DNA from: Lichenibacterium ramalinae
Lineage (GTDB): Bacteria; Pseudomonadota; Alphaproteobacteria; Rhizobiales; Beijerinckiaceae
Reading direction: 5' to 3'
Assembly: GCF_004137085.1 (NCBI RefSeq)
Contig: NZ_QYBC01000011.1
Span: 124,001-188,000, forward strand
Length of the DNA: 64,000 bases
A model generated the notes under the pieces. It worked only from the letters and a program-made list of their open reading frames with translations. It was not told where the DNA came from and did no database searches. The translations under genes were made by a program, and so were the position numbers. Positions 23,656 through 27,973 of this stretch are shown in pieces; the first letter of the stretch is position 1; the number at the start of each line of letters is the position of its first letter.

Positions 23656-23694
23656 GGACCGGGCTTGGTTGAGCTGCAGGGTCCCGTGACACGC

Positions 23695-24810
23695 ATGATC
23701 GACAGCCGCCCCCGCGCGGGATGGGCCGCGCCCGCCGCGCGGGCACTTTCGGCCGCGACGGTGCTGTTGGCCGCGACGGTGCTGCCCGGCGCGGTTTCGC
23801 CGGCGGCGGCGGCCGAGGCTGCGGCCGGCCGCCCGGCGGGCGAGGCTGCACCCGGCCGCCCCGCGGCCAGGCCCGGACCGGCGCCGCCCCTCGTGCTGGT
23901 GGTGGGCGACCGCTTCGCGACCGCCCTCGCCGACGGGCTCGATCCCGACCCGACCGTCGTGGTGGCGCGCACGACGGGCGACGCCTTCGGGCTCACGCGT
24001 CCCGGCTACGCCGAGTCCCTCGGCACGATCCGCGAGCGCCTGGCGCGCCCGGACCGTCCGGCCCTCGCCGTGATGATGGTGGGGACCGACGACCGCGACC
24101 CGCTGTCCGACGCCTCGGGCCGCTTCGAGCCCGGCACGCCCGGCTGGGCGCGGCTCTACGGCGAGCGCGTCGACGCCATCTCGGCCCTGTTCCGCGACGC
24201 CGGCGTCCCGCTCGTGTGGATGGGCCTGCCGGCGGTGCGCTCGGCCACGCTGTCGGCCGATCTCGTGCGCCAGAACGGCATCATCCGCGATCGCGCCGCC
24301 AAGGACGGCGCCAGCTACGTCGACAGTTTCGACGGCTTCACCGACGATGCCGGCCGTTACAGCCCGGTCGGCCCCGACGTCGACGGCGCCACCGTCAAGC
24401 TGCGCCGGGCGGACGGGCTCGGCTTCACCCGCGCCGGCGCGCGCAAGCTCGCCAGCTTCCTCGCGCCCGAGGTCGCGCGGCTCGGCCGCTCCACGGCCGC
24501 GGCCAGCGCCAACGACGTCGCGAGCCTCACCATCGACCGCGCCCGCGGCTTCGATGCGGCCCTCGACATCGACGTCAACGCCCAGATCCGGCGGGAAGCC
24601 GCCCGGGCCGCCGGCCAGCCCGAACCGGCGGCCGGGCCGGGTCCGGCGAGCGGGCCCGCCGCCGGCCCGGTGCTGCCGCTCACCGCCGCCCCGACGGCGC
24701 CCGACGGGCAACTGGCCAGCCTCGCGCCCCCGCAGGGCGCCCCGCCCGCCGCCGAACCCGCGACGCCCCGGCCCGGGCGGGCCGACGACTTCTCATGGCC
24801 GCGGAACTGA
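23695..24810 (+). CDS. DUF459 / SGNH-fold protein, apparently catalytically dead
   Basis: Secreted, Ala/Pro-rich protein of 371 residues. An N-terminal signal and linker (to about residue 62) lead to an SGNH-hydrolase fold of the DUF459 type (VVARTTGDAFGLTRPGYAES, VPLVWMGLP, VDSFDGFTDDAGRYSPVG). Two catalytic positions look replaced: the block-I GDS reads GDRFA (Arg at residue 73), and the terminal DGIHFT reads DGLGFT (Gly at 243 for His). The tail (from about 300) is low-complexity Pro/Ala/Gly. Upstream GTG (23686) and TTG (23665) starts are possible. It follows the lytic transglycosylase, a common pairing in the order, so a structural or regulatory role at the cell wall is likely. Confidence 0.78.
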   Translation: MIDSRPRAGWAAPAARALSAATVLLAATVLPGAVSPAAAAEAAAGRPAGEAAPGRPAARPGPAPPLVLVVGDRFATALADGLDPDPTVVVARTTGDAFGLTRPGYAESLGTIRERLARPDRPALAVMMVGTDDRDPLSDASGRFEPGTPGWARLYGERVDAISALFRDAGVPLVWMGLPAVRSATLSADLVRQNGIIRDRAAKDGASYVDSFDGFTDDAGRYSPVGPDVDGATVKLRRADGLGFTRAGARKLASFLAPEVARLGRSTAAASANDVASLTIDRARGFDAALDIDVNAQIRREAARAAGQPEPAAGPGPASGPAAGPVLPLTAAPTAPDGQLASLAPPQGAPPAAEPATPRPGRADDFSWPRN

Positions 24811-24819
24811 GGCGGGGCA

Positions 24820-24846
24820 GCGCCGGATCCGCACCCGATCCGGCGC
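24820..24846 (+). terminator. Hairpin at the 3' end of the DUF459 gene
   Basis: GCGCCGGATC (24820-24829) and GATCCGGCGC (24837-24846) form a perfect 10-bp stem with a 7-nt loop, starting ten bases after the stop codon. No T-run follows, so it may act as a 3' stabiliser or a factor-assisted terminator. Confidence 0.6.
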
Positions 24847-24875
24847 TTGACGACGGCTGCGACCGGTGCTAGCCC
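24847..24875 (+). promoter_or_regulatory. Probable promoter of the ilvB leader
   Basis: TTGACG (24847-24852) with 17-base spacing to TAGCCC (24870-24875). The -35 is good and the -10 weak. Its position, directly after the hairpin and about 30 bases before the leader peptide, fits an attenuated ilv transcript. Confidence 0.4.
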
Positions 24876-24903
24876 TTTTGCGATAGCAGCGAGTGTGGCG
24901 GCG

Positions 24904-24954
24904 ATGTCGACGAACCTTATCGTAATTCTGGCGCCTGGAGCGGATCGAGACTGA
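24904..24954 (+). CDS. Leader peptide of the ilvB attenuator
   Basis: A 16-codon frame encoding MSTNLIVILAPGADRD. Five consecutive codons specify Leu-Ile-Val-Ile-Leu (ctt atc gta att ctg), exactly the amino acids whose synthesis starts with the downstream acetolactate synthase. Several of these codons (ctt, gta, att) are rare in such a GC-rich genome, which would increase ribosome stalling. The stop codon falls inside a strong hairpin, and an intrinsic terminator lies about 30 bases further on, as in classical ilv attenuation. The frame is too short for usual gene finders. Confidence 0.85.
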   Translation: MSTNLIVILAPGADRD

Positions 24955-24969
24955 CGTCTCGGCATCCGC
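24940..24969 (+). promoter_or_regulatory. Pause/antiterminator-region hairpin of the ilvB leader
   Basis: GCGGAT (24940-24945) pairs with ATCCGC (24964-24969), and inside it GAGAC (24947-24951) pairs with GTCTC (24956-24960). The leader stop codon TGA is at 24952-24954 in the loop. A ribosome reaching the stop would disrupt this stem, while one stalled at LIVIL would leave it free. Confidence 0.65.
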
Positions 24970-24984
24970 TTTCGGCGCATACCC

Positions 24985-25006
24985 AGGCCCCTCGCGGGCC
25001 TTTTTT
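24985..25006 (+). terminator. Intrinsic terminator (attenuator) before ilvB
   Basis: AGGCCC and GGGCCT form a 6-bp GC-rich stem around the loop CTCGC, followed directly by a run of six T. It lies 40 bp before the ilvB start codon and after the leader peptide, so it must be read through for ilvB to be expressed. Confidence 0.85.
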
Positions 25007-25046
25007 ATTGCCCAAATTCCTGACGATCTGAGCCTGGAGCTTCCCC

Positions 25047-26822
25047 ATGTCGAGACAGATGACCGGCGCCGAGATGGTCGTGGCCGCCCTGGAGGACCAG
25101 GGCGTCGACACGATCTTCGGCTATCCCGGCGGCGCCGTCCTGCCGATCTACGATGCCCTGTTCCAGCATCCCAACGTCAAGCACGTGCTGGTGCGGCACG
25201 AGCAGGGCGCCGGCCATGCGGCCGAAGGCTATGCCCGCTCCTCCGGCAAGGTCGGGGTGCTGCTGGTCACGTCGGGGCCCGGCGCCACCAACGCCGTGAC
25301 GGCGCTGACCGACGCGCTGCTCGATTCGATCCCGCTCGTCTGCATCACCGGCCAGGTGCCGACCCACCTCATCGGCTCGGACGCGTTCCAGGAGTGCGAC
25401 ACCACCGGCATCACGCGCCACTGCACCAAGCACAACTACCTCGTGCGCCGCATCGAGGACCTGCCCCGCATCCTGCACGAGGCCTTCTGGGTCGCGTCGC
25501 ACGGGCGGCCGGGTCCCGTCGTCATCGACATCCCCAAGGACGTGCAGTTCGCCTCCGGCACCTATGTGGGGCCGCAGAACATCGTCCACCGCACCTACCA
25601 GCCGGTGGTCAAGGGCGAGATGGACCGCATCCGCCAGGCGGTCGCCATGATGGCGGCGGCCAAGCGGCCGGTGTTCTACACGGGCGGCGGCGTCATCAAC
25701 GCGGGTCCGGAAGCCTCGAAGCTGCTGCGCGAACTCGTGGCGCTGACGGGCTTCCCGGTGACGTCGACGCTGATGGGCCTCGGCGCCTACCCGGCCTCGG
25801 GGCCGAACTGGCTCGGCATGCTAGGCATGCACGGCACCTACGAAGCCAACCACGTCATGCATGATTGCGACCTGATGATCGCCGTCGGGGCCCGTTTCGA
25901 CGACCGCATCACCGGGCGGCTCGACGCCTTCTCGCCGGGCTCGCAGAAGATCCACATCGACATCGACCCGTCGTCGATCAACAAGGTCGTCAAGGTCGAT
26001 CTCGGCATCGTGGGCGATTGCGGCTTCGTGCTCGACGACATGGTGCGGCTGTGGCGCTCGGAGGGCCACGGGGCGGACCGCGCCGCCCTGGCGGACTGGT
26101 GGGAGCGGATCGAGGGCTGGCGCCGCCGCAACTCGCTCGGCTTCACCAATTCCCGCACCACCATCAAGCCCCAGCACGCCATCCGGCGCCTCTACGAGCT
26201 GACGAAGGACCGGGACACCTACATCACCACCGAGGTCGGTCAGCACCAGATGTGGGCCGCCCAGCATTACGGCTTCGACAAGCCCAACCGCTGGATGACG
26301 TCGGGCGGGCTCGGCACCATGGGCTACGGCCTGCCGGCCGCCATCGGCGTGCAGATGGCGCATCCCGGGGCGCTCGTCATCGACGTGGCGGGCGAAGCCT
26401 CGATCCTCATGAACATGCAGGAGATGTCGACGGCGCTGCAGTATCGCCTGCCCGTGAAGGTGTTCATCCTCAACAACAGCTACATGGGGATGGTGCGCCA
26501 GTGGCAGGAGCTGCTGCACGGCTCGCGCTACTCGGAAAGCTATTCCGAAGCCCTGCCCGACTTCGTGAAGCTGGCCGAGGCCTATGGCGGCGTCGGCATC
26601 CGCTGCGACGACCCGGGGGAGCTCGACGCCGCGATCCTGCGCATGATCGACACGCCCCGCCCGGTGATCTTCGACTGCGTGGTGGAGCGGGAAGAGAACT
26701 GCTTCCCGATGATCCCGTCGGGCAAGGCCCACAACGAGATGCTCCTCCCCACCGGCATCGACGACTGGGGCGCCCCCGACCTCGGCGCCGTCATCGACGA
26801 GAAGGGCAAGATGCTGGTCTAG
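25047..26822 (+). CDS. ilvB: Acetolactate synthase, large subunit
   Basis: Thiamine-diphosphate and FAD-dependent enzyme joining two pyruvates (or pyruvate and 2-oxobutyrate), the first common step of Val, Leu and Ile synthesis. 591 residues, normal length. Domain order is the TPP-PYR domain (FGYPGGAVLPIYDALF, HEQGAGHAAEGYARSSGKVG, with the ThDP-activating Glu), the central FAD domain, and the TPP-PP domain with GEASILMNMQEMSTA and NNSYMGMVRQWQ. Its expression is probably controlled by the leader-peptide attenuator directly upstream. The small subunit normally follows directly, but here a DUF559 gene and palindromic repeats intervene. Confidence 0.97.
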   Translation: MSRQMTGAEMVVAALEDQGVDTIFGYPGGAVLPIYDALFQHPNVKHVLVRHEQGAGHAAEGYARSSGKVGVLLVTSGPGATNAVTALTDALLDSIPLVCITGQVPTHLIGSDAFQECDTTGITRHCTKHNYLVRRIEDLPRILHEAFWVASHGRPGPVVIDIPKDVQFASGTYVGPQNIVHRTYQPVVKGEMDRIRQAVAMMAAAKRPVFYTGGGVINAGPEASKLLRELVALTGFPVTSTLMGLGAYPASGPNWLGMLGMHGTYEANHVMHDCDLMIAVGARFDDRITGRLDAFSPGSQKIHIDIDPSSINKVVKVDLGIVGDCGFVLDDMVRLWRSEGHGADRAALADWWERIEGWRRRNSLGFTNSRTTIKPQHAIRRLYELTKDRDTYITTEVGQHQMWAAQHYGFDKPNRWMTSGGLGTMGYGLPAAIGVQMAHPGALVIDVAGEASILMNMQEMSTALQYRLPVKVFILNNSYMGMVRQWQELLHGSRYSESYSEALPDFVKLAEAYGGVGIRCDDPGELDAAILRMIDTPRPVIFDCVVEREENCFPMIPSGKAHNEMLLPTGIDDWGAPDLGAVIDEKGKMLV

Positions 26823-26830
26823 CTGATGCT

Positions 26831-26873
26831 CCTTCTCCCGTGAAACGGGAGAAGGTGGCCCGGCGAAGCCGGG
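26831..26873. repeat. Palindromic element upstream of the DUF559 gene
   Basis: Two consecutive hairpins: CCTTCTCCCGT (26831-26841) with ACGGGAGAAGG (26845-26855), then CCCGGC (26859-26864) with GCCGGG (26868-26873). The layout copies the two-hairpin plan of the 48-bp repeat 20 bp further on, with a diverged sequence. It lies just after the ilvB stop. Confidence 0.75.
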
Positions 26874-26893
26874 TCTGACGCGGGGAAGCGCCG

Positions 26894-26941
26894 CCCTTCT
26901 CCCCTCCGGGGAGAAGGTGGCCCGAAGGGCCGGATGAGGGG
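26894..26941. repeat. 48-bp palindromic repeat, upstream copy of an inverted pair
   Basis: Contains CCTTCTCCCC/GGGGAGAAGG (stem 26895-26917) and GGCCCGAAGGGCC (26919-26931), ending GGATGAGGGG. Its reverse complement matches the copy at 27335-27382 at 47 of 48 positions. This is the REP-like CCTTCTCCCC...GGATGAGG family common in Hyphomicrobiales. Confidence 0.85.
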
Positions 26942-26951
26942 ATCGGGGGGC

Positions 26952-27413
26952 ATGGAACGTCCAGCATCGGCCACCCGACGCGCCCGCTCCCTGCGGCGCG
27001 ACATGACCGATGTCGAGCGTTGGCTCTGGAGCAAGCTCAGGGACCGCCGCCTCGGCGGTTACAAGTTCGTCCGGCAACTGCCTGTCGGTCCCTTCTTCGC
27101 AGACTTCGCCTGCCGTGACGCGATGCTGATCGTCGAACTCGACGGTTCGCAACATGCGGAGAGCCTCCGGGACCACCTCCGGGACACCTTCCTCCTGAGC
27201 CAAGGCTTCGGCGTCCTCCGGTTCTGGAACCATGAGGTCGCCGGCGGGATCGCCGACGTCTGCGAGACCATTCTGGCCGCGGTCGAGAAGCGTCTCACCC
27301 CTCACGACCGCTTCCGCATACCCGCACCCGAGAACCCCTCATCCGGCCCTCCGGGCCACCTTCTCCCCGGAGGGGAGAAGGGCGCCACCTCCACCGACCG
27401 AGACACCCCATGA
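26952..27413 (+). CDS. DUF559 endonuclease-like protein
   Basis: 153 residues of the DUF559 family (COG2852), a small PD-(D/E)XK-nuclease-like fold related to very-short-patch-repair enzymes. Family blocks are MTDVERWLWSKLRDRRLGGY, KFVRQLPVGPFFADFACRDA, LIVELDGSQHAE with the catalytic-type E/D, and GFGVLRFWNHEV. The last ~27 residues (from about PENPSSGPPGHL) are encoded by the downstream palindromic repeat and are probably not part of the fold. The stop overlaps the ATG of ilvN (ATGA). ATG 26952 follows GATCGGGGGG. It lies between ilvB and ilvN inside inverted repeats, so it looks like an inserted unit. Cellular function is unknown. Confidence 0.85.
   Translation: MERPASATRRARSLRRDMTDVERWLWSKLRDRRLGGYKFVRQLPVGPFFADFACRDAMLIVELDGSQHAESLRDHLRDTFLLSQGFGVLRFWNHEVAGGIADVCETILAAVEKRLTPHDRFRIPAPENPSSGPPGHLLPGGEKGATSTDRDTP
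27335..27382. repeat. 48-bp palindromic repeat, downstream copy of an inverted pair
   Basis: Inverted copy of 26894-26941 with one mismatch (CTCC for CTTC in the small loop). It lies within the 3' end of the DUF559 reading frame and ends 27 bp before the ilvN start codon. Confidence 0.85.
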
Positions 27414-27973
27414 ACGCGCTCACGCCGCCGCCCGCCTCCCCGCCCTCGCCCTATTCGTCGGCGTTGGCCACCTCCAACACCGAGCCCCACACGCTGTCGG
27501 TGCTCGTCGACAACGAGCCCGGCGTGCTGGCCCGCGTGGTCGGGCTGTTCGCGGGGCGTGGCTACAACATCGAGAGCCTGACGGTCGCCGAAGTGGCGCA
27601 TGCCGAGCACCAGTCGCGCATCACCATCGTGACCTCCGGCACGCCCGAGGCCGTGGAGCAGATCCGCCACCAGCTGGAACGGCTCGTGCCGGTGCACCGC
27701 GTCACCGATCTCACCATCAAGGGCCATTTCGTCGAGCGCGAGCTCGCCATGGTGAAGGTGCGGGGCAAGGGCGAGAACCGCATGGAGGCGCTGCGCCTGT
27801 CGGAAGCCTTCCGGGGCCGCGTCGTCGACGCCACGACCGAGAGCTTCACCTTCGAGCTGACCGGCTCGCCCTCCAAGATCGACCAGTTCGTCGAGCTGAT
27901 GCGCCCCGTCGGCCTCGTCGAAGTGTCGCGCACCGGCGTGGCGGCCATTTCGCGCGGACCGGACGGGATGTGA
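27410..27973 (+). CDS. ilvN: Acetolactate synthase, small (regulatory) subunit
   Basis: 187 residues. The ACT domain (TLSVLVDNEPGVLARVVGLF, then GRGYNIESLTVAEV) binds valine for feedback inhibition, and the C-terminal ALS_ss domain follows (ELAMVKVRGKGENR, GLVEVSRTGVAAISRG). It works as a complex with IlvB. The start ATG overlaps the DUF559 stop, so translation may be coupled to that gene rather than to ilvB. Family call is secure; many genomes use the name ilvH for the same gene. Confidence 0.96.
   Translation: MNALTPPPASPPSPYSSALATSNTEPHTLSVLVDNEPGVLARVVGLFAGRGYNIESLTVAEVAHAEHQSRITIVTSGTPEAVEQIRHQLERLVPVHRVTDLTIKGHFVERELAMVKVRGKGENRMEALRLSEAFRGRVVDATTESFTFELTGSPSKIDQFVELMRPVGLVEVSRTGVAAISRGPDGM

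Follow-up and report, generated by a model that had tools for sequence, protein, structure and literature searches.

The leader described here lies directly upstream of ilvB in a 64,000-nucleotide stretch of Lichenibacterium ramalinae DNA (contig NZ_QYBC01000011.1; the whole stretch is referred to as the window) and is very likely a ribosome-mediated transcription attenuator of ilvB(N). By all comparative signs the element is real and functional, and sequence comparison supports well its interpretation as a Leu/Ile/Val leader-peptide attenuator of ilvB. Leader-peptide attenuation of alpha-proteobacterial ilv operons was predicted earlier. The element adds a member to this group and leaves the basic view of amino-acid attenuation unchanged; its interest lies mainly in the re-reading of the Rfam entry Atu_C8, in the choice of control codons and in the missing antiterminator.

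Organization of the ilvB leader

The features are listed in Table 1. The leader peptide, MSTNLIVILAPGADRD, is encoded by ATG TCG ACG AAC CTT ATC GTA ATT CTG GCG CCT GGA GCG GAT CGA GAC TGA. Among the control codons, CTT (2.4% of Leu codons), ATT (2.5% of Ile codons) and GTA (0.3% of Val codons) are rare in the window genes while ATC (95.9% of Ile codons) and CTG (49.5% of Leu codons) are common, the reference being the 38 gene calls of the window (16,273 codons). A ribosome-mediated attenuator is expected to have a short frame in which codons for the amino acids made by its operon are clustered, and an intrinsic terminator that separates the leader from the first structural gene; both are present.

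Table 1. Features of the ilvB leader and of the genes downstream (window positions)
Feature	Position	Strand	Description
Promoter-like sequence, sigma-70 type	24847..24875	+	TTGACG-N17-TAGCCC; from sequence and TTGAC in relatives
Leader peptide ORF	24904..24954	+	MSTNLIVILAPGADRD; 16 codons; Leu/Ile/Val run in 77/77 distinct family sequences
Control codons	24916..24930	+	CTT ATC GTA ATT CTG, Leu-Ile-Val-Ile-Leu, consecutive
Hairpin A	24931..24978	+	MFE fold; covariation in three helices
Hairpin A, outer helix	24931-24935/24974-24978	+	
Hairpin A, long inner helix	24937-24951/24956-24972	+	
Intrinsic terminator	24985..25006	+	AGGCCC-CTCGC-GGGCCT + T6; stem 24985-25001, T6 25001-25006
Post-terminator motif	25007..25013	+	ATTGCCC (consensus RTTGYCY); conserved in family
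ilvB	25047..26822	+	Acetolactate synthase large subunit, regulated gene; NCBIfam NF006581, 1114.6 bits (cut-off 974)
ilvN	27410..27973	+	Acetolactate synthase small subunit; NCBIfam NF008864, 225 bits

Immediately after the control codons comes the outer 5′ arm of hairpin A; in the MFE fold the TGA of the leader (24952-24954) sits in the hairpin loop. Because of this placement, hairpin A would be affected differently by a ribosome that sits on the control codons than by one that has reached the stop codon. The fold energy (z -2.2) is modest evidence taken alone. The terminator stem was the sole terminator-like site detected by a terminator scan of positions 24780-25100, and 40 nt separate the end of its T6 run from the ilvB ATG (25047). 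The first-pass annotation had proposed a 16-codon leader with five branched-chain codons in a row, three of them rare, a stem over the stop codon and a GC stem with a T6 run 40 bp before ilvB. Direct reading of the sequence, the MFE fold and the codon counts of the window bear out each of these, the three rare codons being CTT, ATT and GTA.

Upstream, the promoter-like sequence places the expected transcription start near 24882. It was not flagged by a generic E. coli-type promoter scan; TTGAC is found at the equivalent position in 29 of the 36 family genomes, mostly with a 17-nt spacer. Downstream, the RTTGYCY motif adjoins the T run and lies past the expected 3′ end of the terminated RNA. 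Its TTG is invariant in all 36 family genomes, and the combined pattern GGNCCT6NTTGCCC has a single exact match in the genome. The GCCC of this motif could pair with the GGGC of the terminator 3′ arm.

Conservation and covariation in the family

The ilvB protein was found in 60/60 relatives, whose upstream DNA was then read. Within the family, 36/36 genomes carry, ahead of ilvB, a short frame containing a Leu/Ile/Val run, then a hairpin and then a GGxCC-T6 terminator. A covariance model, R1, was built from 30 of these 36 leader sequences. It has one match in the present genome and matches 190 of 199 family genomes (168 of the 171 good ones), nearly always once per genome; the nine genomes without a match are mostly less complete assemblies. 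Conservation of the frame and stems in close relatives, the absence of which had been named as an argument against the attenuator, is thus widespread. Strong matches include Chelatococcus, Methylocystis, Methylocella, Microvirga, Bosea and Methylobacterium. When extended to the whole class the search recovered almost only family members, so that R1 is a family-level and not a class-level model. The result is a family-wide set of ilv attenuators (about 95% of the sampled genomes) together with a usable covariance model. One genome (G058) carries two leader copies (L083 and L091), each ahead of its own ilvB-like gene, and another (G262) has two R1 matches (L146 and L147).

The coding content of the leader is also conserved. 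Among the 77 distinct family sequences, 76 have a Leu/Ile/Val run of at least three codons and 70 have Leu, Ile and Val all present in the run, and the spacing between the start codon and the run differs only by multiples of three. GTA accounts for 90 of the 103 Val codons in these runs, against 0.3% in the window genes, and CTT for 62 of the 92 Leu codons, against 2.4%. The leader strongly favours the rarest valine codon, GTA, and its control codons are biased towards rare ones. Elf and Ehrenberg have argued that attenuation is sensitive only with a particular choice of synonymous codons (PMC1183508). GTA and CTT clearly illustrate, in a natural system, the use of rare codons as control codons.

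Covariation analysis of the leader in relatives, which had been suggested as a check, was carried out with the same 77 sequences and supports the hairpins. Two-sided changes were observed in 18 of the 22 pairs; double-changed cells number 176, compared with 53.7 in shuffles, and none of 500 shuffles reached the observed values on any of five measures. Overall, 89.6% of paired cells are complementary, a proportion which falls to about 50% when the partners are slid by one column and to about 50% or less over all slid structures, and the top pairs in an all-pairs mutual information analysis are the predicted pairs. The alignment was fitted to the covariance model, which favours the structure; MAFFT alone gives matching blocks. 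Hairpin A includes three covarying helices with 16 of 17 pairs changed on both sides. The terminator varies less than hairpin A. Its helix is 94.3% paired, and GGxCC-T6 is conserved in the family. Conservation and covariation together rule out chance.

Proposed mechanism and search for an antiterminator

In the mechanism that we propose, transcription would begin at about 24882 and a ribosome would translate the 16-codon leader. With plentiful charged Leu-, Ile- and Val-tRNAs the ribosome would proceed as far as the stop codon within hairpin A, with termination of RNA polymerase at 25001-25009 to give an RNA of about 128 nt. Scarcity of any one of these charged tRNAs would halt the ribosome on CTT-ATC-GTA-ATT-CTG and more polymerases would read through into ilvB. 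Both the response to amino acids and its direction are inferred from known attenuators.

In the classical scheme, the stalled ribosome frees a segment which captures the 5′ arm of the terminator. A conserved alternative pairing of this type, excluding the terminator, was sought in five ways and none was found, it being understood that an invariant or species-specific pairing would escape folding and covariation. All-pairs mutual information across the family alignment and consensus folding of truncated alignments revealed no conserved antiterminator pairing. Duplex energies between the terminator arms and each upstream region showed nothing conserved above shuffles: the best-supported duplex, between the regions labelled R1-inner and R3, is strong in absolute terms (mean -10.7 kcal/mol) yet barely exceeds what composition gives (z -0.35 against shuffles). 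Pairing was also computed for the terminator 5′ arm at a point where its 3′ arm is not yet present: the value was 0.59 for a ribosome on the final BCAA codon, 0.56 for one at the stop and 0.62 in shuffles, and 18 more distant leaders gave 0.51 against 0.46. The identical calculation for E. coli trpL, a positive control with its sequence verified against E. coli genomes, gave 0.71 stalled and 0.03 at the stop. The trpL leader and the present element have in common a leader peptide, an early hairpin and a terminator, whereas a clear antiterminator emerges from the stalled-state calculation for trpL only. Finally, hairpin A extends into the terminator arm less often than it does in shuffles, a significant avoidance. 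An equilibrium test was dropped because it does not discriminate, the trpL terminator being retained in all states, and because the pair register was off in many sequences.

The "full ilv attenuation architecture" of the first-pass annotation is therefore too strong a term: the frame, codons, hairpins, terminator and position stand, but the five approaches did not reveal a conserved antiterminator. With this limit, we retain the attenuator as very likely. That no conserved antiterminator is visible raises the mechanistic question of how ribosome stalling is passed to the terminator.

One possible though doubtful answer is that there is no classical antiterminator and that hairpin A itself sets terminator efficiency through pausing or stacking, remaining folded if the ribosome stalls early and melting once the ribosome reaches the stop in the loop. 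This is a sub-model of the attenuator explanation rather than an alternative to attenuation. It would account for the presence of two hairpins that are strongly conserved and do not overlap, the first of which encloses the stop codon, and agrees with the lack of a conserved alternative pairing in folding and covariation. However, it depends on these negative results, which an antiterminator of invariant bases or one varying between species would escape, and the complementarity of R1-inner and R3 noted above is strong in absolute terms. A combined version, in which a two-hairpin attenuator without an exclusive antiterminator is read by hairpin A standing or melted and Atu_C8 may act in trans as well, appears improbable.

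Relationship to Atu_C8 and to other leaders

The window matches Rfam family RF02502 (Atu_C8, "Rhizobiales sRNA") with 24.3 bits (E 0.0064), below the gathering threshold of 50. Strong matches to RF02502 lie some 80-200 nt ahead of ilvB in Agrobacterium, Rhizobium, Sinorhizobium, Mesorhizobium, Aminobacter and Mycoplana. R1 was run on the first four of these, where its matches coincide with the Atu_C8 sites, and intermediate relatives match both models. Examples of Atu_C8 at the ilvB leader position are L239 301-420, L237 298-418 and L205 323-443, and an ilvB start was recognised within 130 nt for 22 of the 27 order-level Atu_C8 matches examined. These sites encode BCAA-rich leaders such as MKNLNVLIVVGRRMGRMV and MKIATVLIVVGKRMGRMV. 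Like the window element, Atu_C8 lies upstream of ilvB with a similar leader peptide and a two-hairpin layout; they differ in that Rfam types Atu_C8 as an sRNA gene whereas the window element is a leader scoring below the gathering threshold. The sequence comparison indicates that the two are homologous. Because Atu_C8 sits before ilvB, encodes BCAA leaders and is matched there by R1, it is very probably a terminated ilv leader and not a free-standing sRNA gene, and its Rfam description could be revised. Matches to the Rfam families SorY, isrK, AgvB and Cupriavidus-1 were far below threshold and were treated as chance.

The conserved RNA might conversely be mainly a stable, Atu_C8-like sRNA that termination sets free to act in trans, the leader frame being of secondary importance. 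The classification of the homologous family as an sRNA gene, the conservation of hairpin A beyond the needs of a terminator and that of the motif past the T run would all fit such an RNA. It is nevertheless very improbable: the element is directly before ilvB in nearly all cases examined, and the in-frame Leu/Ile/Val run is kept in all 77 sequences.

The attenuator reading finds further parallels in known systems. BCAA-dependent attenuators were reportedly predicted for the alpha-proteobacterial ilvIH operon by Vitreschak and colleagues in 2004. The window element resembles these in operon, position, bacterial class and leader-peptide attenuation, although the family differs. As expected for the alpha-proteobacterial ilvB/ilvI leader family, a homologous leader is located directly before the gene for the biosynthetic acetolactate synthase large subunit and is kept in relatives. 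One article lists an S. meliloti "ilvIH cis regulatory" element with reference to Vitreschak et al. 2004 (PMC2573895). Another shows, citing Tarleton et al. 1994, that the Caulobacter ilvL leader attenuates its operon (PMC4117421); as described there, the ilvBN/ilvIH leader of Caulobacter crescentus shares BCAA codons and a rho-independent terminator with the window element. The ilvBNC attenuator of Corynebacterium glutamicum is reported to use CUU (Leu) and GUA (Val) control codons (PMC11857589) and resembles the window element in these codons, in its adjacent hairpins and in its operon. In contrast, a boundary GCC is shared there by the antiterminator and the terminator (PMC11857589), and no such overlap is conserved in the family of the window element.

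Genomic context of the operon

The upstream ORF ends at 24810, so that the terminator near 25000 could simply serve that gene, with the short frame arising by chance; this is scarcely credible given the family-wide conservation of the frame, the Leu/Ile/Val codons and hairpin A, and the promoter-like sequence which separates the gene from the leader. The upstream gene (23665-24810) has weak similarity to PatB-like peptidoglycan O-acetyltransferases (31 bits, cut-off 580).

The ilvB gene encodes the large subunit of the biosynthetic acetolactate synthase, and ilvN probably shares its transcription unit. An ORF with a DUF559 domain (26934-27413) stands between the two genes and is flanked by palindromic CCTTCTCCC/GGGAGAAGG repeats (region 26828-27413). 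The sequence CACCTTCTCCC is present three times, against 0.02 expected. The DUF559 ORF and the repeats may represent the insertion into the operon of a small element, mobile or REP-like. Similar repeats were observed near ilvB at the loci L003, L006 and L014.
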